DNA of 64,000 nucleotides from Mortierella sp. BCC40632. Its lineage: Eukaryota > Mortierellomycota > Mortierellomycetes > Mortierellales > Mortierellaceae. The notes beneath the pieces were generated by a model. It made no database searches, was not told where the DNA came from, and saw only the letters and a program-made list of their open reading frames with translations. The stretch is from the NCBI GenBank assembly GCA_011634665.1, contig WAEK01000009.1:1665501-1729500 (forward strand). Reading direction: 5' to 3'. Both the position numbers and the translations under genes were made by a program. Below are positions 7,361 through 21,520 of the stretch, piece after piece (positions within the stretch are counted from its first letter, which is position 1; every line of letters starts with the position of its first letter).

Positions 7361-8414
7361 CCATGAACAAAGACTAAAAACCCTGTACTAAACCCGTGTA
7401 AAATTTTGTTAGTACTTTTGACTATGTTGCTCGATTGGAGACCTTCTTTGTCGCATTACCTGTGGTAGGTTTTGTAGTCGGAACCACATAAGTACGCAAA
7501 CAAGATCTTCTCTACGAATCAACATGGAGGAATGACTGGGCATGAACTGAGGAGTAAATTTTGTGAATGATTCCCATCTAAAAAAAATCATAAACGAATT
7601 TTGGATGCACTTTACAAGGAGGAACACTGATGCGATATTGCCTCGAATGTCTTCTTGCATCAATTCCTGCATGTCGATGACTCCGATGTCAGTTTGTACG
7701 TCGTCCTGCATCGCCCTCAACAACAACACTTGGGGATCTTCTTCCTTCTCGTCCGCCGTATCCATCTCATCGCTCTCACCGCTCTCGCTATCCGACCCCG
7801 AGCTCTCTCCGGAACCTTCACTCTCGCTGGATCCGCTATCATCCTCCATTACCTCCATTTTAATGCTTTCCTCGCTCTGCTCGTCGGCTCTCATGATCAG
7901 CGGCAATGTGCCACTCACTGCATCAATCTCAATCCGGCGGTTATGCAAATGGAAGACATATTTCCCGGTGGACCATTCGGTAGTGCCTCGCATCATCTCC
8001 ATAAATGCCCTTCCCAACAGAATGTCGAACGGCGGATCGTCCATGATAACACAGCCGATAGGGATCAGCAGACCTTCGACATTGAGTGGTACATCCGAGA
8101 CTTCACCTTTCACCACTGCCTTGCCATTGATTCCCTTCACTGCGATCGAAGAATAAGGAGACGCGTTCGCGATGCCAGCCTTCTCCAAAAACTTACGGCT
8201 GATCACATTGACACAGGACCCACCGTCCAACAGCGGCTTGACAGGCTCGTTCAACACCGTCGCAGGAAAACAGTGCGTGCTGAAGTCGGACACTTCGCTC
8301 TTGAGTAGCAGGGTATGATAGTCCCTCTCTTCTAATGTCAGATGAAGAGAAGGATGTTGTCCCAACAAATACACCCGTTGCTCTTGTGGGACCGTCTTCA
8401 AGGCTTGTCCTAGC
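7361..8414 (-). pseudogene. Ty3-W protease region, separated from its gag by an inversion
   Basis: On the minus strand it starts with KTVPQEQRVYLLGQHPSL next to MITE-A and reads through an aspartic protease with KPLLDGGSCVNVISRKF (D-G-G), then VIMDDPPFDILLGRAFM. A long acidic serine-rich tail follows (about 7660-7850), then a frame-broken stretch that matches 1826-1993 up to the A1 insertion. The natural upstream part lies at 15912-16698 on the plus strand, beyond MITE-B. Joining the two pieces across the duplicated GTCCTAGC keeps the frame. It has no start of its own, so the 330-aa ORF start at 8401 is not a real start. Confidence 0.8.
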
Positions 8415-8785
8415 TAGTGTTTCCCATGAGTCGAGTTGAGTTGAGTTGGAGGTTCGACTCAACTCAACTCATGCACACATGAGTTGGGAAAAATATGAAC
8501 TCAACTCAACTCATGAGTCGAAAAGTTTGAACTCAACTCAACTCAACTCAACTCATGAGTTGAAAAGTTGAACTCATCTCAACCCAGGGCATCTACGCCC
8601 TGTAAGCGAGTCGACTCACTCTAACTCAACTCAACTCAACTCAACTCATGAGTTCATGAGTCGAAAAAAGTTTCGACTCAACTCAACTCATGTTACACGA
8701 GTCGGGAGAAAGTTTGAACTCAACTCAACTCATGAGTTGAGTTGAGTTGAGTCCGTGAGTTGGTGAGTTGAGTTGAAGAACACTA
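8415..8785 (+). mobile_element. GAGTT-rich MITE copy A (hAT-like)
   Basis: 371 bp, from TAGTGTTTCCCATGAG to GTTGAAGAACACTA, almost entirely built from GAGTT/AACTC units around a small CAGGGC-ATCTAC-GCCCTG hairpin. No ORF. Its left flank GTCCTAGC and right flank GTTACCAC do not match each other. Each instead matches the opposite flank of copy B when B is read on the other strand, which marks an inversion endpoint. Confidence 0.93.
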
Positions 8786-9174
8786 GTTACCACCAACAGC
8801 GCATCTATGGACCACACACGCACAAGACAGCTTTTCGCTGCAGATACGGTCATTTTGAGTTTAATGTGGTTCCATTTGGCCTCACAAATGCACCGGCTTC
8901 CTTTTCCAATATGATGCTGAAAGTACTCGATCCTGTTCTGGACAAGTGGGTTGTCGTCTACCTCGACGATATCTTGATTTATTCAAAAACCAAGACCGAG
9001 CATCTCCGCCATATTCGAAGTGTCCTTGTCCTCCTCCGAAAACATGGACTGTACGTCAAGCTGAGCAAGTGCTCTTTCATGAAAGAAGAAACGGAGTTTC
9101 TCGGCCATGTAATAACCAAAGATGGCGTTCACACCAATGCTGGGCTTGTTAAAGCGATTCGTGAATGGCCACGA
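8786..9174 (+). pseudogene. Ty3-X' RT fragment (inverted half)
   Basis: Reads [33 protein letters not shown], then VVYLDDILIYSKT and EFLGHVITKDGVHTNAGLVK. This is the second half of an X-family RT whose first half is at 17070-17520 on the minus strand. At 9174, just after the codons for REWPR, the Y1 LTR begins. Confidence 0.88.
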
Positions 9175-9357
9175 TGCAACAGTCAGAGGCCAGGGAGTCT
9201 TTGGTTTGGGCAGTTTATTGCTAAAGATTAAGGTAACTAAAGGGTTGACTATTTATACAAGTATTTTGGTGGCAATGTGGAGGGGGCGCGGTGGTGGTGG
9301 CAACAGGACAGTCACAAATAGTGGCAAAGGGCGCAGCTTGAAGAGGACACTGTCGCA
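9175..9357 (-). repeat. Y1 3' LTR (183 bp)
   Basis: TGCAACAGTC...CTGTCGCA, alignable end to end with the Y2 LTR at 59379-59561. It begins exactly where X' RT is interrupted. Confidence 0.88.
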
Positions 9358-9367
9358 CCTTCCCCTT

Positions 9368-11584
9368 TTAAAAATTTAGGTCGTGCTTCTGCTTGTACTC
9401 GTCCACGGTTTCCTGGCAATGTGAAAGATCCTTTGCTTTTTCCCATGTTGCTTCGTCTCGAGAGTAGCCCTTCCACAAAATAAGGAACTGATGTTGCCGT
9501 CGGTAGAATCGATAGTCCAGAATACTGTCTACTTCAAACTCTTCTTCTCCATCGATGATTTCAGGCTCTGGTTCCGAATGTACTGTTGTCCTAGGGCCGA
9601 GAGATTCCGGTGACTCTTCATAGTGTCGGAAACGATCCACATGGAATACGTCGTGTATTTTCATTGTCGGAGGTAATTCAACTTTGAAGGTGACAGGGGA
9701 CAATTGCTGAAGGAGTGTGTAAGGTCCAATGAATCTTGGCTTCAGTTTTTCGGATGGTCTGTTCTGGTCTGCTGGGATAGTGATATGTTCCGCGTTGAGC
9801 AAGACCTTGTCACCTTCTTTGAAGTTATGCTCGATCCTATGTTTGTCTGCGTTCCAAGTCTGCCTTTCCTGTGCCAGTCGAATGGAGTCCTGAGCCTCCT
9901 TGAGTATCCTGCTCTGGTCGCTAACGAAACTTTCAACCTTGGGAGCTTTAGATGGTTAGGGTTGTAGTAGGGCGGTGTGCTGTAGCTCCTTGCTCCAAAG
10001 ACACACGGGGGATGCTCAAAGGAGAGGAAGGCAAAGGGACGGTCATCTGGTCGAGGGCCAATGAATGAGAGTCATAGGATTGCTCAGGTGGGAACAACAG
10101 CCAGGAAGGAAGGAAAGAATGAAAGAGGGGGGGACGAAACGAGAAGAGTCTTACATCAAAAGCGCCATGCTACCAACGGGTCGCCAGGAGCTCTTCAATG
10201 GCATGAAACGAGCGGAAGGCAGCACAAAAGCTAAATCAAGCTTCTCTAAAAAGAAAGGGGAAGGGTGGACGCATCTTACTTTCAAAGTCAACAAGGAACA
10301 AAAACAAAAGGAAGAAACGACCTGGAGCAAACAAGAGCCTGCTCAAGTATTTATTCATCTACTATCTATTGAGGGGCATGCAGACCAGATGGCTCCGCAG
10401 CCCCAAGTTGTCCACCTCTTGGAAAGGGCTAAAATCGTAACTACTGCGACCAGTGTCAGTTACTACACGACATCGGATGGGATACGGGGATGGTAACCCA
10501 TGTTCAAAAAGAAAGGAGAGTAGCCAGTTGTTGGGTTGACCGAGTTGTTGTATCCAAATTCGAGTGACGGTAATAAAAGGTCCCAGTTTGTCTGTTGTTG
10601 ATCTATGACAGCTCGAAGCATGGTTGTGAGCGTTTGGATTGCGCGTTCTGATTGCCCATCTGTTTGGGGGTGGTGTGCAGTCGACATGGCTAACTTTGTG
10701 TCCATTAGTCGGTGTAACTCCTGCCAGAACTGACTAGTAAACTTTGTATCCCGATCTGACACAATAGTTGTTGGCATTCCATGAAGTCGGAAGACATTTT
10801 TGAAGAAACAATGGGCCACATCAACAGCTGTATCTGTAGTTCTACTAGGTGCGAAATGAGCCTGCTTTGATAGTTTGTCGACAAAAACTGTGATTGCATC
10901 AAATCCTCTCTCTGTTCGTGGTAATTGAACAACAAAATCCATTGTTACTGTTTCCCATCGTTGATCTGGGATTGGAAGTGGATGGAGGAGTCCTGTCGGC
11001 GCACGATTGCTATGTTTGTTCCTCTGGCAACTCTCACAAGTCCTGACGTACGTCCTGATATCATTGACTATCTGTGGCCAGAATGCAAAGCGTCTCAGGT
11101 TGTCGTAGGTTTTATCGAATCCCAAGTGTCCTGCTATGGCTGAGTCGTGTGCATCATGGATGAGTGAGTGGCGGATGTCAGCATTCCTGGGGATACAAAT
11201 TACTGATTTGCCTCGTCGTAGCACATGGAGTAGTCCATCGAAAATAGCATATCCTTGAGGTGGTTGTCCTTTCATGCAGCTATAATAGATAGGCCATAAA
11301 CGGCTGTCGTCTCTGTAACTAAGGATGAGTCGTTTTCGAAGATCGCGGTCCAGAGTTATTTCCATTGAATTAAAATCGACAGGCTGGGGTAGAGAGTGGT
11401 CAGGTCGACGGGAGAGGGCGTCTGATACGATGTTTTCTGATCCTTTCTTATATTTGAAGGTGAAGTCGTACTCCTGAAGGAGTTTCATCCAATGAGCTTG
11501 GCGACGGGTGAGCTTCGGTTGTGTAGGAAAGTGTCGTAGTGTAGCATGATCGGTATAAACGATGAAGTGTGTTCCATCGAGATA
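9368..11584 (-). pseudogene. Ty3-Y1 RNase H (end), integrase and chromodomain
   Basis: From 11584 downward: [18 protein letters not shown], the integrase HHCC region (HDSAIAGHLGFDKT, TCESCQRNK), core FRLHGMPTTIVSDRDTKF and HHPQTDGQSERAI, then the R1 insertion. After R1 come SPVTFKVELPPTMK, FHVDRFRHY and a chromodomain (EEEFEVDSILDYRFYRRQHQ, ILWKGYSRDEATWE) ending in KQKHDLNF. Apart from R1 and one small frame change near 9800 the sequence is close to Y2. Confidence 0.87.
9976..10472 (-). mobile_element. R element R1 (solo-LTR-like)
   Basis: 497 bp. Read on the minus strand it runs from TGTCGTGTAGTAAC to GAGCTACAGCACA. It interrupts Y1 integrase between the LLQP and SDGIRGW regions; Y2 gives the empty site (agagcggatggg near 60172). 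Flanks GCGG and TCGG agree in three of four bases. No meaningful ORF. Confidence 0.85.
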
Positions 11585-11650
11585 TAGTGGTCAGCGAAAG
11601 TGTTCGCATGTTTTCTGTTTTGCTATATCAGTTTTCCTCCCTCGCTCATT

Positions 11651-11868
11651 TTTTTTTTTTTTTTTTGCCTGCTTTTATACAGTGAGATTTCGGCCACTAG
11701 CTCTAAGCCTAACCAAACAAACACTACAAAGAGAAGCTCTATCTTGTGTCTGCCAATCTGCCACTGTTTACACGTTCTCCCTCTAGAAACCCCAACGGAC
11801 AACCCCTCCCATCTTCTCCATGAAAGAGGCTGTAGTCTCCCCCAGGAGACTCATCCGGAGAGCTGCAT
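11651..11868 (-). mobile_element. SINE-like retroposon inside Tc1-1
   Basis: About 217 bp flanked by direct repeats CTCCCTCGCTCATT (11637-11650 and 11869-11882). On the minus strand it ends in a poly-A tract next to one repeat, the signature of target-primed retroposition. No ORF and no clear pol III A/B boxes. The head holds a short GTCTCC/GGGAGAC stem. It could be a SINE or the cDNA of an unidentified small RNA. Confidence 0.6.
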
Positions 11869-12069
11869 CTCCCTCGCTCATTTTAACTTATGCGATTCTC
11901 TTTTTTAAATGGTAGATTGCTTGGCTGATGGTCTCTATTTTGGCTGTATGTCAATCGATTTGAAAAAGATTTGGTCAAGATATAAACACCCTCTATTTCT
12001 TCACTCCATTCGAACACTTTATTTGAATCACTACACTTTTTGTTTGATGGAGTCGGACCAATTCTAGTT

Positions 12070-13088
12070 TCAATTTATTTGGCACCCTTTCAGTCGTATC
12101 ACTTTCTCCATTCGACTAGGAAGACTCTCATACAATGAATGGAGGAAATCATCTGGGATCGATCCCCAGATATGATCGATTCTTTCCCACAAGGTCTGTA
12201 GATTTGGTGCAGTCGTTTCGTATCTATCCAGAGCCCTTTTGATGTATGCCCATACATGCTCAATGATGTTGAGGTCGGCAGAGTTTGCAGGCCACTCAAG
12301 TCGTCGAATTCTTCTGCGTCTGAAGAAGTCTTGGATAATACGTGCAGTATGAACTTTGGCGTTGTCCTGTTGAAAAAGAAAACTTGCAGCGTCCATTTGC
12401 CACCGGTTGCGAGAAGCGATTACATAGTCATCGAGTATCTCCAGATACACTTGCGAATTGATCCTATCCTTGATCCACTCGGAGTCCCCTACGCCAAAAA
12501 ATGTAATGCAACCCCACATCATAATTTTCCCTCCTCCACCCTGTGGAACTCCTATCTTGTGATGTTCTCGCTTGCCTTTGTTTCGTTTTCGAGAGTAATA
12601 GTGCTTCCTTCCGTAGGACCCCATCCTACTAACTACAGTCTCGTCGGAGAACATAACGTTCTTCCAGTCCTCCACCGTCCAGTGCAAGTGATCCTTGGCA
12701 AACCGGACTCGATCTTGCTTGTGCTTCTTCGTCAGATAAAGTTCCTTCGCTTGACATACGAATAGAGACTATCTTTTTTTTTCAGATACTTCCTGATTGT
12801 CTCTATGTGAACGTCAACTCCGTCTGTTCCAAGAACGAGCTGCTTTCCCTCGAGAACAGTTGAAATTTGACCACTGTCCACTTGGCGAATAAGCATCCTC
12901 CTAGTGGCATCGCAAACTTTCTTAGGACGACCTATTATCGGATCAGGAATATTCTCCTTGTCCTCGTTCCTGATCTTATCGATAGCTGCAAGGGAGATAT
13001 GAAGCTCATTTGCCACCTGACGGATCGACCTTCCGTGTCGAAGAAGAGTCTTGACATTGTTGATCTTTTCTTGGGAGAGCCGTCTCAT
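12070..13088 (-). pseudogene. Tc1-1 transposase (one frameshift)
   Basis: DD34E cut-and-paste transposase. The start is taken at MRRLSQEKINNVKTLL (13088), which aligns with the start of the Tc1-2 protein; the ORF extends upstream without likeness. The N-terminal helix-turn-helix includes GRSIRQVANELHISLAAID, then GRPKKVCDAT. The catalytic domain has MFSDETVVS, QQDNAKVHTA and NSADLNIIEHVW, with 34 residues between the second D and the E. A frameshift near 12745 separates the DNA-binding and catalytic parts. All three catalytic residues are present. Confidence 0.9.
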
Positions 13089-13420
13089 TTTGGATTGGTG
13101 TTCTGTTAATGATTGAAACAGCAGGAGAGGAGAATACAGTGCTGAGGAGCCGTGCTGAAAGATAAAGAGTTGGTTGAGAAAGAGAAGCGGAGGTGAAAAG
13201 AATGCTATTTCAAACAAAGTGTATGAATGGACTGGATATTTTTGAAATCATGGTTTGATATCATGCTGAGCAGATTCCTGTCACAGATGAAACCGGAATG
13301 AAACCCAACGGCCAGACAACCCTTTCTTTCAATTGCGATAGCACTGTGTCTTGGAACAGGGAGTAATCACAAAAGTGCTGCAATTTCAAAATTATGCGAA
13401 CACTTTCGCTGACCACTTTA

Positions 13421-13777
13421 TCATGATCAGGATCGGCGAGTGCAACAGAGCTTGTTGTACTTCTTCGAACGATCGAGCATACTTCCTATCCGCGTTCCAG
13501 GCTTGAACGAATTTGAGTGGTTTCTTGTCGAAGCGATACAACTCAAATAGCGGGAGGGCTTTCTCAGCGAAGCAGGAAACGAAATCACCCATGAACAATG
13601 CGAAGCCAATGAAACCTCGGAGGTCCTTCACATTTCGTGGGGTTGGCCAGTATTGTATCTTTGCCAGTTTCTTCGGATCGGCGCTGATGGTACGTATTTC
13701 CATTGACGACTCTGCCTAGGAATTCCCTTTGCTTCACCAAAAAACCCGACTTAGCTCCCGAGAATGATCCATTGTAC
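13421..13777 (-). pseudogene. Ty3-Z RT thumb and start of RNase H
   Basis: Minus strand, read from right: KSGFLVKQREFLGRVVN, then ISADPKKLAKIQYWPTPRN, KDLRGFIG, and LHSPILI. This is the connection between RT and RNase H of a Ty3 element unlike A, X, Y or V here. Cut by Tc1-1 on one side and the W LTR on the other. One frame change near 13705. Confidence 0.75.
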
Positions 13778-13782
13778 TGCGG

Positions 13783-14093
13783 TGTAGTAAATACATTTAC
13801 GCATCTTCCGGTAGGAGTTTTGGGGCCGATATAAAAGGCCCCATCCCCCTTCTCAATAAAAGATCAGCTTCTTTCTTCCACATAAAAAACTTTGCACTTC
13901 GCTTACTGCGTGCTATTTTTCAAGGTACCTACAAGTCTCCAGAACTTATACAGGACCCATGCTTCACCCTCCAACCCTTTCATACTAAGACCTCCTCCTG
14001 CACTTGTCCCGAACAGATCTACTAGTATTCCTCCTCGATTCCTCACCATCGTGACGGCAGGAGGTAATCATATAGATTGAAGTAACGACAGCA
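13783..14093 (+). repeat. Ty3-W 5' LTR
   Basis: TGTAGTAAATACATT...GTAACGACAGCA, about 311 bp, with a TATAAAAG box near 13840 and AATAAA near 13855. A second copy lies at 57417-59353, interrupted by Tc1-4. Both copies are preceded by TGCGG, so the true start could be five bases earlier. Confidence 0.8.
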
Positions 14094-14095
14094 AT

Positions 14096-14113
14096 TGGTA
14101 CGTATGAGACTCG
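14096..14113 (+). other. Ty3-W primer binding site
   Basis: TGGTACGTATGAGACTCG, two bases after the LTR; its complement ends in CCA as a tRNA 3' end does. Conserved at the second W copy. Confidence 0.65.
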
Positions 14114-14556
14114 GTTGGAGGGGTGAAAGTGAACCAAGAAAGGCTCCCATATGATGGTCTTGACCATCGTTTGGTCTATTTATCCCCCCGGCCATGATGC
14201 GTGGACTTTACGGACCCATCTCAGTTTGATCCGCAACGGATTAAGACCTCAAGATCCTTTTTTATTGATAGTCAATCCTTTTCTACTACTCCTTTCATTA
14301 GTTCGTCAGATTAGCAAGCATTTTCGTTTACCTGTGTGCCATCCTGGTCATCTTAAAATATCCCATTTTTTCTGTTATCGTAAGTAGTCCATCCTCTTTC
14401 GAGTCTCTGATATCCTATGTAGGAAAGAACAGATATTGACTAGAACCATCGTATTTAGAAAACTATTTTGCACAGAAAACTGGTGGAGAACCTGGGCAAG
14501 CGTAAATCGTCCAACATTAAAGCCAAGGATAAACAAACAAAGAAATTTTTTCGAGA
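14114..14556 (+). other. Ty3-W leader
   Basis: Untranslated leader between primer site and gag. No ORF or other feature recognised. Confidence 0.6.
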
Positions 14557-15918
14557 ATGAGTCACCAACAAAATCCTGTACCCGATCCAGAATCTTCAGA
14601 AACAGACTTGCTCTCACTGTTGAGGCAGATACGTGATTCGCAAGAGCAAAGCAGTCGGAGAATGGATCGTTTCGAGGCGGACTTGAAAGCGCTGCGCTCA
14701 ACTCCGGCGTCCAACTTCCAGCAATGGAGGGAAAAGCCACGAAGTCAATCCGAGTCGGATGATGGCAGTGGAGAGGACCATTCATCCATCGAACGAGAGC
14801 AAATCAATCGGTCTAGATCGACATCTGGTCCCGCCCCGGCTACCAGTTTCGCCACTTCCTCTGCGTCGATGGCTGAACATGCGCACATCACACCTCAGAT
14901 GATCACCGAAGCCAACAAACGGGTTTACCACGGGAAGAAATTCGATCCCAAAAGCGGACACGTGGGTGAATGGGTGGAGTACTTCAGAGCGTATCTTAGC
15001 TCCAATATTTGGGATCTCCCACAAGGAACGAGGAATATTATTGCGATGAGGATGCTTGGGCAGGCATTGACTGGTACGACAGAGCAGTATTGGTTCTCCG
15101 AAATCCGCAAGGTCAAGGACGACTGTCAGGACATTTTAGACGAGTTGGAAGAGAGCTTCACACCTGATCACGTCAGGCAGAAAATGGGGACGATCGAGGA
15201 TGTTCGAGCGTGTAAACAAGAGGAGGGTGAGATCACTAGGATCTATCTCATCCGTTTTGAGCGAGCAGTCGCCCGGCACAGACGGGCCATGATGAAAAAG
15301 CGGCATACGATCGATGACAAGCAACTGATCCAGGCGTTATATGCTGGGATCCAGTCGAAGGAGATTGCCAAGCATGTTAAACGAACTCGAACGATTGACC
15401 AGGCCGTCGTAGAAGCCCGAAAGGCGGCGCAGGCGGAAAGTCATTGGGCCTGTCTGCGAGATGATGCGAAAGTCGAAAGAGACGCCAATGGGAACTCTAG
15501 TTCTTCCGTCGGTGAGCCGTCTGTAAGTCCTGTGAAATCGGAAACATCTGCCAAAGCGGAGGCGAAGAATAGCGAGTTGGACAGTCTGACGAAAGCAGTG
15601 AATGATCTCCGTATCATGATCAGCAGACAACAGCCGAACAACAACGCTCCCCGAGCACCGGGGGCTGTTAGACCTCGTCAGAGACGTCCATTGAATGAAA
15701 TCGAATGCTTCAACTGTCGTCAGAAGGGCCACTACTCAAACGATTGTCCCGAACCTCCAACCAAGAAGACAATGCTGGCCCAGATTGAATATCAGAACCA
15801 GATGGAATATCCTGAGGCGGAGACCTTTATCGGTAGCGTGTTCTTGACTGAGGAGGATTATCGCGAGTTCACTTATGAGCAGGATAAGATCGAGCAGGAT
15901 TTTTATCAGGGATGGTGA
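14557..15918 (+). CDS. Ty3-W Gag
   Basis: 453-aa intact Gag. The start MSHQQNPVPDPESSE is the first ATG of the frame after the leader. The N-terminal part is polar and Ser-rich. The capsid-like region runs from KFDPKSGHVGEWVEYFRAY through YAGIQSKEIAKHVKRTR (retrotransposon Gag pattern). The CCHC knuckle CFNCRQKGHYSNDC is near residue 385. An acidic C-terminal tail ends at TGA 15916-15918, overlapping the next ORF as ATGGTGA. It is intact although it lies inside the inverted 7.9-kb segment. Confidence 0.9.
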   Translation: MSHQQNPVPDPESSETDLLSLLRQIRDSQEQSSRRMDRFEADLKALRSTPASNFQQWREKPRSQSESDDGSGEDHSSIEREQINRSRSTSGPAPATSFATSSASMAEHAHITPQMITEANKRVYHGKKFDPKSGHVGEWVEYFRAYLSSNIWDLPQGTRNIIAMRMLGQALTGTTEQYWFSEIRKVKDDCQDILDELEESFTPDHVRQKMGTIEDVRACKQEEGEITRIYLIRFERAVARHRRAMMKKRHTIDDKQLIQALYAGIQSKEIAKHVKRTRTIDQAVVEARKAAQAESHWACLRDDAKVERDANGNSSSSVGEPSVSPVKSETSAKAEAKNSELDSLTKAVNDLRIMISRQQPNNNAPRAPGAVRPRQRRPLNEIECFNCRQKGHYSNDCPEPPTKKTMLAQIEYQNQMEYPEAETFIGSVFLTEEDYREFTYEQDKIEQDFYQGW

Positions 15919-16698
15919 GCCATGGTCAATTTCACTATCCCATCGAAAGGCGACCACCCGATACATATCATGCCCTCGCAGCGATAAAGCCGAGCGCCGG
16001 GCGCATACAAAAGCAAACCGAGACGCGACATCCTGCGAGACGATTGATCCCTATGACCCCTGCGTCATTAAGGCCAAACCAAATAGCGCGAATAGCAAGA
16101 GCAGCTGGTGGGAGGCCAGCGCCAACATCAAACCAGGATCCCACATCGAAACCGTCACAAGGTCCTGAAATGGCGGGAAAGTCATTGTCCGAAATTATGG
16201 CACAACCGGTCTCAGCTGATCCGACAGTGTTAGATGAGGTCTTAAGGAAATCCTACGGTGACAGCGATGCAGAAATGGAGTCCGCCGACGGAAATATATC
16301 TCGGCCCAAGCGAAACATCGTGTCCTTCGAGGTGCCGACGATCCAAGCTGCAAATCATCGCAGAAGCCCAAGATTGACAAAGAAAGAAAAGGCGCGGCCA
16401 GTTTCAGTGAAAGCGAAAGAGAAGTCGAAGCCAAAATCGGTCGTGAAACAGAAGTCTCCAATGGCGTCCATTGGGAGTAACGGAAGTAACGATGAAAAGA
16501 AGGGACAGGACAAGGACACCAAAGCTCAGGATATGAAGGATCTAAAGAAGAGGATCCGGTCATTGCCTGCGCCGATTAGGATGACCTTGGGGCGCACTCC
16601 ATTCAACATTGAAGAGTGTCTGAAGACAACCTTGGTGGAAAATCTGTCAATTGCGGACTTGATTGGAATCAGTCCTCACATCCGGCGGATGCTAGGAC
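15912..16698 (+). pseudogene. Ty3-W Pol, N-terminal part
   Basis: Overlaps the end of gag by 7 bases in the -1 frame, so Pol could be made by frameshifting or reinitiation. The product is basic and low-complexity (KKEKARPVSVKAKEKSKPKS), then LPAPIRMTLGRTPFNIEE and GISPHIRRMLG, where MITE-B cuts it. The continuation is the protease at 7361-8414 on the other strand. Confidence 0.82.
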
Positions 16699-17069
16699 TA
16701 GTGTTCTTCAACTCAACTCACCAACTCACGGACTCAACTCAACTCAACTCATGAGTTGAGTTGAGTTCAAACTTTCTCCCGACTCGTGTAACATGAGTTG
16801 AGTTGAGTCGAAGCTTTTTTCGACTCATGAACTCATGAGTTGAGTTGAGTTGAGTTGAGTTAGAGTGAGTCGACTCGCTTACAGGGCGTAGATGCCCTGG
16901 GTTGAGATGAGTTCAACTTTTCAACTCATGAGTTGAGTTGAGTTGAGTTGAGTTCAAACTTTTCGACTCATGAGTTGAGTTGAGTTCATATTTTTCCCAA
17001 CTCATGTGTGCATGAGTTGAGTTGAGTCGAACCTCCAACTCAACTCAACTCGACTCATGGGAAACACTA
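16699..17069 (-). mobile_element. GAGTT-rich MITE copy B (hAT-like)
   Basis: 371 bp, opposite orientation to copy A (TAGTGTTCTTCAACTC to GGGAAACACTA). Left flank GCTAGGAC and right flank GTGGTAAC do not match each other but are the reverse complements of the outer and inner flanks of copy A. Confidence 0.93.
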
Positions 17070-17520
17070 GTGGTAACCAGAAATGAGGTCAAGCTTGGTA
17101 AAGTAGCGAGCGCCACGGAATCTGTCAATAAGCTCGTCTATTCTGGGCAGCGGGTGGCGATTCTTCCTTGTGATACTGTTGAGAGCGCGATAATCGACGC
17201 ACATTCGGAGAGTGCCATCAGCCTTCTTGACGAATAAAACAGGGGCACCATACGGAGACGTGCTTGGTTTGATGAACTTTTTGGAGAGTAGGTCGTCCAG
17301 TTGTTTCTTTAGCTCGTCAAGTTCAGCAACAGATAGTCGAATGACGGGGCGGAAGGGGGTCTGCCGCTGGGTCAGTGTCGATACGCATAGCATCACCTCG
17401 GTCGGGGAAGGCCTGATGGGAGGGTAGGGGGGAAAATGTCTGGGAATTCGTCAAAAACAATTGAGTGGATGTCGGGGTGTAAGGGAGGGGTGGGGGGGGA
17501 GGAGCGGAGGAGGGAGGATC
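17070..17520 (-). pseudogene. Ty3-X' RT fragment (N-terminal half)
   Basis: Minus strand: a proline-rich linker, [66 protein letters not shown], and [11 protein letters not shown] ending at MITE-B. Its continuation is at 8786-9174. The upstream part is cut off by the X1 LTR. Confidence 0.88.
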
Positions 17521-18940: not shown

Positions 18941-20620
18941 ATGTCTTGTCAAAGCCGAAGTGGCCTGATATTGCAGCATCATGAACCTCGTGGAGTAGGA
19001 TTAAACGCAGAGTGGACGACTTCGGGACGCAGAGTAATAGGTCACCCTTTGCGCTCGACATACAATAGACCGTCCTGCAAAAAGTAGTGTGGTGGTGGTT
19101 GGCCTTGAAGACACCTCTCATAGACGGGAGCAAGACCAGGGTCATCAGCATACCCCTCTATAACGTGCTGTCTCCAACTTGTATCCGTCTGAAGGCTGAA
19201 AGAGTTGATGGACATAGGGACAGGATCTGGTTCAAGTTTATCAAGGTTCGCGGTGGTCCGGACGACGAGAGAGAGCATCTGGTACGATGTTCTCAATTCC
19301 CCGCTTGAACTTGAACTCGAAATCATACTCTTGGAGGAGTTCCATCCATCTCGCCTGGCGCCTTGTCAGTTTGGGCTGGGTTGGAAAGTGTCTCAGCGTA
19401 TCGTGATCGGTATATACAATAAAAGTGTGAACCGTCTAAGTAAAAGCGCCATGTTTTGAGGGCGTGGACAACAGCCAGGAGTTCCTGTTCATGGGTAGGG
19501 TAGTTCCGTTCAGCTGGGTTTAGTTTGCGGGATGTAAATGCGACAGGTCTGGATGATCCGTCGGCGTCTGTTTGAAAAAAAGAACAGCACCTATGGCAAA
19601 TCCAGAGGCATCAGTCTCCACTGTGGACGGCAGATCGGGGTCAAAGATTCGTAGGACTGGAGCGGAGCTGATTGCAGATTTGAGGCTAAGGAATGCTTGT
19701 TCGCTGTTTTCATCCCATACGAACTGATGGTTTTCGCCAAGGTAGGGAGGTGAGGGGAAGTGCGATGTCGGCAAAATTTTTGATATATTGGTGATAAAAT
19801 TGCGCAAGACCAAGAAATTGCTGAACGTCGCGTTGTTTCTCCGGTCGTGGCCATTCACGAATCGCTTTAACAAGCCCAGCATTGGTGTGAACGCCATCTT
19901 TGGTTATTACATGGCCGAGAAACTCCGTTTCTTCTTTTCATGAAAGAGCACTTGCTCAGCTTGGCGTACAGTCCATGTTTTCGGAGGAGGGCAAGGACAC
20001 TTCGAATATGGCGGAGATGCTCGGTCTTGGTTTTTGAATAAATCAAGATATCGTCGAGGTAGACGACAACCCACTTGTCCAGAACAGGATCGAGTACTTT
20101 CAGCATCATATTGAAAAAGGAAGCCGGTGCATTTGTGAGGCCAAATGGAACCACATTAAACTCAAAATGACCGTATCTGCAGCGAAAAGCTGTCTTGTGC
20201 GTGTGTGGTCCATAGATGCGCTGTTGGTGGTAACCAGAAATGAGGTCAAGCTTTGGTAAAGTAGCGAGCGCCACGGAATCTGTCAATAAGCTCGTCTATT
20301 CTGGGCAGCGGGTGGCGATTCTTCCTTGTGATACTGTTGAGAGCGCGATAATCGACGCACATTCGGAGAGTGCCATCAGCCTTCTTGACGAATAAAAAAC
20401 AGGGGCACCATACGGAGACGTGCTTGGTTTGATGAACTTTTTGGAGAGTAGGTCGTCCAGTTGTTTTTTTAGCTCGTCAAGTTCAGCAACAGATAGTCGA
20501 ATGACGGGGCGGAAGGGGGGGTCTGCCGCTGGGTCAGTGTCGATACGCATAGCATCACCCTCGGTCGGGGGGGAAGGCCTGATGGGAGGGTAGGGGGGGG
20601 AAAATGTCCGGGAATTCGTC
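18940..20620 (-). pseudogene. Ty3-X1 RT and RNase H
   Basis: RT begins at [15 protein letters not shown] near 20540, then [38 protein letters not shown] near 20060. RNase H has [14 protein letters not shown]. The frame is broken at several runs (for example A7 near 19572 where X2 has A5). X2 carries the same region as one open frame. Confidence 0.87.
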
Positions 20621-21520
20621 AAAACAATTGAGTGGATGTCGGGGTGTAAGGGAGGGGTTGGGGGAGGAGCGGAGGAGGGGGAGGAGAAGAGGGAGAGAGG
20701 AGGAAGGGGCAGAGAGGAAGGAGGAGGAGGAGGGGGCAGAGGAAGGAGTGGAGGAAGGAGTGGGGAGGAAGGAGTGGAGGAAGGGAGTGGAGGAAGGAGT
20801 GGATGAAGGAGTGGAGGAGGGAGTGGAAGAGTGATTTGTTTGATCTGTGCTATCCTCATCGAGAGACCGAATAAGGGGCTAAGCAGATCTCGCTTCCGAT
20901 GTCTGTTGCCTCAGTGAAGAAATGTACGTGAGTGAGGAGAAGTCCCCGAGTGCGAGATGAGATAGATGACGATTTGAAACCAGTGCATTCCCAATCGATG
21001 GTGAGGCCGTTGTGTTGGAACCGTAGATTGTTTGTCCGCCAGTTGATGAGTGGGTTGATCTCAGCAAGCCAAGGCTTGCCAAGAATAAGGTCATATTTGT
21101 GGAGAGGGTAGACGATAGGGGTAAGAGTTGTGGAGTATTGGTGTCGTTGTAGGGAGATGTTGGATTTGAGTGCTGCAAAAGATTGGGAGCCATTTGGGAG
21201 GATGATAGGGATAGGGGAGATGCAAGTGTAGGGATTGAATGTTTTTGATGAAAGACTCGCTGACCACATTGCCTTGGGCTCCGCCGTCGATGAGGACCGC
21301 GCTGGATGGCCGTCAACATTGCAAATAAATGTAAGGAGTGTCGACTTTGCCTTCTCCACTGTGAAAGTAGAGACTCCAATGCCTTTTTACGTAGGCGGCG
21401 AATCTTGCTTTTAGATAGAACTGAGGTAGAGCAGGGTTCGGAGATTGAGGATGATGGGGATGAACTGAATGCAGGGTAGGTGTTATCGTCCAATCCTGTC
21501 TCAGGTTGAGTAGGCAAGGG
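20621..21520 (-). pseudogene. Ty3-X1 protease and proline-rich linker
   Basis: TFICNVDGHPA precedes a protease whose active-site stretch is frame-broken near 21300, then [36 protein letters not shown] and INWRTNNLRFQHNG. Between protease and RT lies an unusual run of about 200 bp, almost only G and A on the plus strand, coding Pro/Leu/Ser repeats (20640-20835). Confidence 0.75.

Follow-up and report, generated by a model that had tools for sequence, protein, structure and literature searches.

The 64,000-nucleotide window analyzed here (contig WAEK01000009.1 of Mortierella sp. BCC40632, positions 1,665,501 to 1,729,500, or C9:1665501-1729500) includes a nest of transposons in which two hAT-type miniature inverted-repeat transposable elements (MITEs), MITE-A and MITE-B, lie in opposite orientation. 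Each MITE is bordered on one side by part of an old Ty3-type element, W, and on the other by part of a young one, X', so that the protease side of W and its gag region, and likewise the two halves of the X' reverse transcriptase (RT), stand at different MITEs (Table 1). MITE-A and MITE-B are identical at 370 of 371 sites, with a single mismatch at element position 257 (T in A, C in B). The arrangement is one that would be expected had the DNA between the two MITEs been turned over, and the present analysis concerns the evidence for such an inversion and its probable cause.

The 8-bp sequences that flank the MITEs do not match each other at either copy, and they match crosswise as exact reverse complements. 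The outer flank of MITE-A, GTCCTAGC (t1), pairs with the inner flank of MITE-B, GCTAGGAC, and the inner flank of MITE-A, GTTACCAC (t2), pairs with the outer flank of MITE-B, GTGGTAAC, in agreement with the swapped target duplications that an earlier note on this DNA had described for the two oppositely oriented MITEs. Over all pairs of 60 family copies, with base preferences taken from 36 distinct perfect duplications, 2e-5 reciprocal swaps are expected by chance. Given this expectation and the complementary halves of the interrupted elements, chance 8-mer matches were rejected as the source of the flank pattern. Nested retroelements are often broken, and two unrelated insertions into W and X' pieces that had already been rearranged might also leave each MITE between different elements. 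However, the breaks in W and X' fall exactly at the 8-mers, and the two halves of each element complement one another with an 8-bp overlap, which makes independent events of this kind hardly credible. An inverted duplication of one locus was likewise rejected, since MITE-B lies between rc(t1) at left and rc(t2) at right, and duplication of a t1-A-t2 block would put the two in the reverse arrangement.

We searched the four 500-bp flanks of the MITEs individually, without joining them, in the whole assembly (49.9 Mb, 62 contigs). The genome searches scored 40 of 102 candidates, 40 of 142 for the inner X' flank and 40 of 115 for the outer X' flank, and the copy numbers are therefore lower bounds. 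Among the matches listed, 26 other places match the inner-left X' flank (8786 onward) from its first base, and at all 26 the outer-right X' flank (17070 onward) adjoins it on the opposite strand, the two sharing exactly 8 bp. The count leaves aside the copy in the window and the 13 of 40 inner matches that start past the first base; 13 of the 41 outer X' matches (diverged relatives at 71-73%, and one partial match) are absent from the list paired with the inner ones. Twelve X places (14 fetched loci) were checked base by base, and each holds one GTTACCAC and no MITE. The window itself has a second, uninterrupted X copy in the same state (Table 1). Of the 23 other matches listed that cover all 389 bases of the inner X' fragment, 22 are 97-99% identical to it and one is 92% identical. 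The RVT_1 match of the outer X' fragment scored 26.4 bits, under the curated cut-off of 29.6.

The W element gives a similar picture from fewer and more diverged copies. In five other copies, the outer-left W flank, which ends at 8414, adjoins the inner-right one, which ends at 16698. The inner flank has five other genome matches, four of which adjoin the outer flank, and the fifth adjoining copy (C53) was identified by local BLAST of a fetched locus. The outer flank has 17 other matches, seven of which were fetched as loci, and five of these adjoin the inner flank. The 8-mer at the junction is GCCCCAGC, two substitutions from t1, in four of the five adjoining copies, and it is displaced by one base in C53. 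Codon phase, calculated from coordinates only, agrees across both joins (phase 1 on both sides in W, phase 2 on both sides in X'), consistent with the claim of the earlier note that flipping the segment rejoins W and X' coding sequence in frame. Since the W and X' halves are continuous elsewhere and here stand 8 kb apart and turned over, the comparison of copies strongly supports the conclusion that 8786-16698 is inverted relative to the ancestor. The exchanged 8-mers and the un-inverted paralogues of both interrupted elements thus uphold what the note had proposed for the 7.9 kb between the two MITEs. The ends of the inversion lie at or inside the MITEs.

Table 1. Features of the MITE pair, the interrupted elements, and the segment between them (window coordinates)
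Feature	Position	Strand	Remarks
Outer part of W (Ty3-type) with the aspartyl protease side, up to the first target site	7409..8414	-	Pfam Asp_protease 8.7e-6
Outer-side 8-bp flank of MITE-A, t1, GTCCTAGC	8407..8414	+	Exact reverse complement of 16691-16698
MITE-A, 371 bp, hAT-type, ends TAGTGTT...AACACTA	8415..8785	+	Longest stop-free frame 57 aa
Inner-side 8-bp flank of MITE-A, t2, GTTACCAC	8786..8793	+	Exact reverse complement of 17070-17077
Segment with strongly supported inversion, 7,913 bp	8786..16698	.	Flank exchange, un-inverted paralogues, codon phase
Inner X' fragment, downstream RT half	8786..9174	+	RVT_1 profile 90-205
Ty3-Y1 pol fragments (chromodomain integrase, H2C2, rve)	9368..11590	-	
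Tc1-type element, 39-bp inverted ends (87%), DDE_3 frame	11576..13427	-	
Inner part of W, with the zinc-knuckle gag and the linker frame after it	14533..16698	+	zf-CCHC 2.1e-6
Inner-side 8-bp flank of MITE-B, rc(t1), GCTAGGAC	16691..16698	+	
MITE-B, 371 bp, opposite orientation to MITE-A	16699..17069	-	1 mismatch to MITE-A
Outer-side 8-bp flank of MITE-B, rc(t2), GTGGTAAC	17070..17077	+	
Outer X' fragment, upstream RT half	17070..17518	-	RVT_1 profile 1-80
Second X copy, uninterrupted	19845..20679	-	Single GTGGTAAC at 20227-20234, no MITE

We consider it probable that the inversion arose by ectopic recombination between the two inverted MITEs, which is the likeliest of the causes weighed. Two young hAT-type MITEs of one sub-lineage would have inserted in opposite orientation about 7.9 kb apart in the transposon nest, one into the old Ty3-W element (target GTCCTAGC) and the other into the young Ty3-X' element (target GTTACCAC). 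Homologous recombination between the 371-bp copies would then have inverted the intervening DNA, exchanging the inner members of both 8-bp duplications and cutting both retroelements into displaced halves. Given that the copies are identical at all but one site and stand in inverted orientation, they offer a homologous substrate for such recombination. Both MITEs would accordingly be older than the inversion, with strand exchange rather than a transposase as the agent.

Transposase-driven inversions are nevertheless known for hAT elements, and the locus resembles maize Ac/fAc in having hAT elements with 8-bp duplications at the inversion ends (PMC8225341). As described in passages of that paper, reversed-ends transposition makes inversions bounded by element ends, adds a fresh 8-bp duplication there, and may shift the breakpoints off the elements. 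Were two MITEs to have moved into a third site in this way, the two inner ends should have a newly made duplication in common, which is not seen here; each 8-mer is common to an outer and an inner end, unlike the product of reversed-ends transposition. Both 8-mers are explained by two old element sites, and the halves fit with nothing missing beside them. The flank pattern thus contradicts this route, which we regard as very improbable. The pattern found corresponds instead to the non-identical one that the same passages assign to homologous recombination.

A second transposase-based route is harder to set aside. In hybrid-element insertion, the left and right ends of a single MITE on sister chromatids would act as one transposon and reinsert about 7.9 kb off, so that one step would yield the inversion, the additional copy, and a fresh 8-bp duplication. 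This event predicts exactly the exchanged duplications and near-identical copies observed, and geometry reasoned from labeled ends gives the same flanks as ectopic recombination. For cooperating copies at the same chromosomal site, passages of Delprat et al. (2009, PMC2775673) call the outcome of hybrid insertion "strikingly similar" to that of ectopic recombination, except that the copies are identical in the former and chimeric in the latter. MITE-A and MITE-B are nearly identical and carry a common rare variant, and the genome has hAT transposase domains (22 matches to the dimerization domain PF05699). However, an unusual transposase event is required, the two copies are not fully identical, and no intact transposase gene or element with the ends of these MITEs was found among the few candidates read. 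We therefore hold this explanation to be doubtful, while giving it some weight. If true, it would make the locus a natural case of hybrid-element inversion by a nonautonomous hAT MITE.

The MITE family in the rest of the genome bears on these possibilities. Searches with patterns for the MITE ends gave 80 and 87 matches, and reversed control patterns gave none. These formed 61 paired copies, 60 of which were used with their flanks (a C43 pair, with flanks unfetched, was left out); with the 45 end matches that stayed unpaired, 120 + 45 flanks, or 165, were compared. Among the 60 copies, with MITE-A and MITE-B included, the 8-bp duplications are perfect in 39, differ at 1-2 positions in 6, and differ at 3 or more of the 8 positions in 15. 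Within this last group, A and B form the sole reciprocal match. Four copies with the palindromic GGTATACC also match one another exactly, each of them matching itself as well. The other exact matches join same-sided flanks of C4:1638846 and C5:2403463, two left ends on C27 that have no paired end, and the fold-back ends on C16 with each other, and a one-sided match of C4:3317793 with C9:4296 is about at chance level. Assembly flips classically occur at inverted repeats that exceed the length of short reads, and the assembler could have crossed between the 371-bp MITEs and turned the segment over, leaving matching flanks on the real chromosome. We consider such a flip unlikely: 20 of 25 near full-length copies, including copies 0-1 base from MITE-B, have perfect 8-bp duplications, no copies with mismatched flanks other than A and B show a reciprocal swap, and the window and fetched loci contain 0 N letters in 313,212 bases (overlaps counted).

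The ends and the 8-bp duplication place the family among the hAT-type MITEs on the basis of sequence. Both ends start with TAGTGTT, as fits the YARNG pattern of short hAT terminal inverted repeats, and the element, at 371 bp with no stop-free frame above 57 aa, is small and lacks a transposase gene. It consists of ACTCA-type repeats and is predicted to form long hairpins (DNA fold -100 kcal/mol; z -13.2 versus shuffles), and such self-folding may have been a trigger for breaks. We aligned 28 of the 30 copies of 330-380 bp (two were missing from the table used). The copy at C12:1327582, on another contig, is identical to MITE-B, and those at C9:1719738 and C9:1764149, on the same contig, are one base from it. 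All three have matching duplications of their own, and almost one sequence has thus been inserted several times independently. Besides MITE-A, two full-length copies and one 334-bp copy within one substitution of MITE-B lie in C9:1502817-1764519, a span of about 260 kb, and one more lies on C12. These relationships suggest a recent burst with partly local insertion. Such a burst would make two independent MITEs 8 kb apart unremarkable, and a single duplicated copy would be compatible with it as well. Since the same sub-lineage made several ordinary insertions, some of them nearby, two independent MITEs call for no special pleading, which argues against hybrid-element insertion. Clustering of near-B copies on C9 is as expected for partly local hopping.

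Several observations weigh against an inversion by recombination between two MITEs, or against parts of the evidence for it. MITE-A and MITE-B differ at one of 371 sites, and chimerism of the copies can therefore not be demonstrated. Together with the flank pattern common to hybrid-element insertion, this makes the word "provable" in the earlier note too strong for the mechanism, although the recombination it proposed stands as the likeliest cause. Among the 19 closest copies, A at position 81 is found only in MITE-A, MITE-B, and the C12 copy, and a single duplicated insertion would also explain why A and B have it in common. At position 257, three copies from a different sub-lineage have the same T as MITE-A, which could therefore owe it either to conversion or to a mutation that came later. 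No second reciprocal swap was found among the 165 flanks, barring self-matching copies with a common palindromic 8-mer, so this genome offers no independent case. Each of the four 500-bp flanks has one 100% copy in the assembly among the matches listed, with no second haplotype. The empty W copies are only about 75-82% alike in 300-base flanks. One of the W copies (C9:1740953/1742290) has 906 bp between the flank matches, with the outer match ending about 106 bases early; at a fetched W locus on C14 no match to the inner flank was found; and the 10 remaining, unfetched outer W matches end before the site in the query.

Inversions of this kind are known from Drosophila buzzatii, in which Galileo generated 2j, 2q7, and 2z3, and exchanged target-site duplications at inversion ends are established for Galileo in passages of Delprat et al. 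(PMC2775673). As at 2z3, elements of the same family lie in opposite orientation at the ends of the Mortierella segment, the duplications are exchanged, and un-inverted DNA has a single copy of the target. Galileo, a P-superfamily element, makes 7-bp duplications, whereas the present case involves 8 bp, a hAT-type MITE, and 7.9 kb. Un-inverted chromosomes were sequenced for Galileo and its copies were shown to be chimeric, according to the same passages; here, the un-inverted state is read from paralogous copies of the interrupted elements. In Atlantic cod, passages of PMC12368964 place hAT-derived MITEs at inversion breakpoints and propose ectopic recombination. Those MITEs are also hAT-related, internally repetitive, and located at inversion ends, but the cod inversions are large and involve tandem MITE insertions, and the words "target site" do not occur in the main text of that paper.

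For fungi, passages on Leptosphaeria maculans report 30 intrachromosomal inversions of 1.3-355 kb (median 9.5 kb), 70% of them bordered by transposable elements (PMC4210507). The Mortierella inversion is likewise small and bordered by such elements, whereas those of L. maculans emerged from a genome comparison between related members of the complex, and neither "target site" nor "TSD" occurs in the main text. Ectopic recombination between transposable elements has been proposed in passages on Cochliobolus heterostrophus (PMC4112212), and inversions are reported with no assigned MITE cause in those on Agaricus (PMC7473861). A literature search with partial coverage (titles, abstract openings, and passages) found no fungal inversion with exchanged duplications.

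The rearrangement is of an ordinary kind and offers a small, well-readable example. Should ectopic recombination be its cause, it would be a clean case in which a repeat as short as 371 bp inverted a segment in a compact genome. The locus also indicates that a single assembly, with no second strain for comparison, can suffice to establish an inversion when 8-bp target tags are combined with paralogous empty sites. The limit is that exchanged tags alone do not tell aberrant transposition from homologous recombination. Should the orientation still be polymorphic, the locus would offer a natural means of assaying how short inverted repeats recombine.

Within the inverted segment, the zinc-knuckle frame, the Tc1-type DDE_3 frame, and the chromodomain Ty3 integrase were all matched, as expected from the W gag, Tc1-1, and Ty3-Y1 elements that the note had listed. 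The RNase H match of Ty3-Y1 breaks off where the Tc1-type element starts. Of the 19 frames at least 120 aa long, 10 were scanned against Pfam. Matches in the frames tested were of retroelement and DNA-transposon kinds, with weak generic helix-turn-helix matches in the Tc1 region, and one frame had none. The W linker frame after gag has no Pfam match. Given that the tested frames gave only transposon-type or generic helix-turn-helix matches, we would expect no phenotype from the inversion.

Other copies of the family show further rearrangements. A 371-bp MITE at C4:1590951-1591321 (L006, L042) has the flanks GTCAGCTC and GTCTTGAG and a same-orientation copy 3.2 kb away, and could stem from recombination between direct copies. 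The full-length MITE at C15:160147-160517 (L008, L100) has unrelated flanks and may be the product of a deletion or translocation; the sequence on its left is 96% identical to C5:1248867-1249373 (L121), a stretch that overlaps a hAT domain. No flank partner for either copy was found among the sequences compared. Fold-back derivatives, in which two right or two left ends face each other, occur at C16:25350-25455 (L101), C5:1127188-1127330, C5:1236909-1237051, and C2:7280-7372. The C16 form, at 106 bp, has a perfect 8-bp duplication (GTAACGAC), and such forms may move. The 906-bp stretch in the W copy at C9:1740953-1742683 (L015, L018) has inverted repeats common to other loci and is perhaps another fold-back insertion nearby. 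The four GGTATACC copies lie at C4:3350660-3350905, C8:2545998-2546358, C9:2303011-2303376, and C11:1021590-1021960 (L052, L074, L088, L095). Three of the four are no more than 20 kb from a contig end, and a subtelomeric repeat has perhaps carried a single insertion to these sites. Another MITE family that is hAT-like, 164 bp long and with the ends CAGTGTTTCT, is present at C9:4702-4865 (L075), C5:1247997-1248160 (L121), and C25:54348-54511 (L111), with 8-bp duplications that match in the first two and are mismatched in the third.

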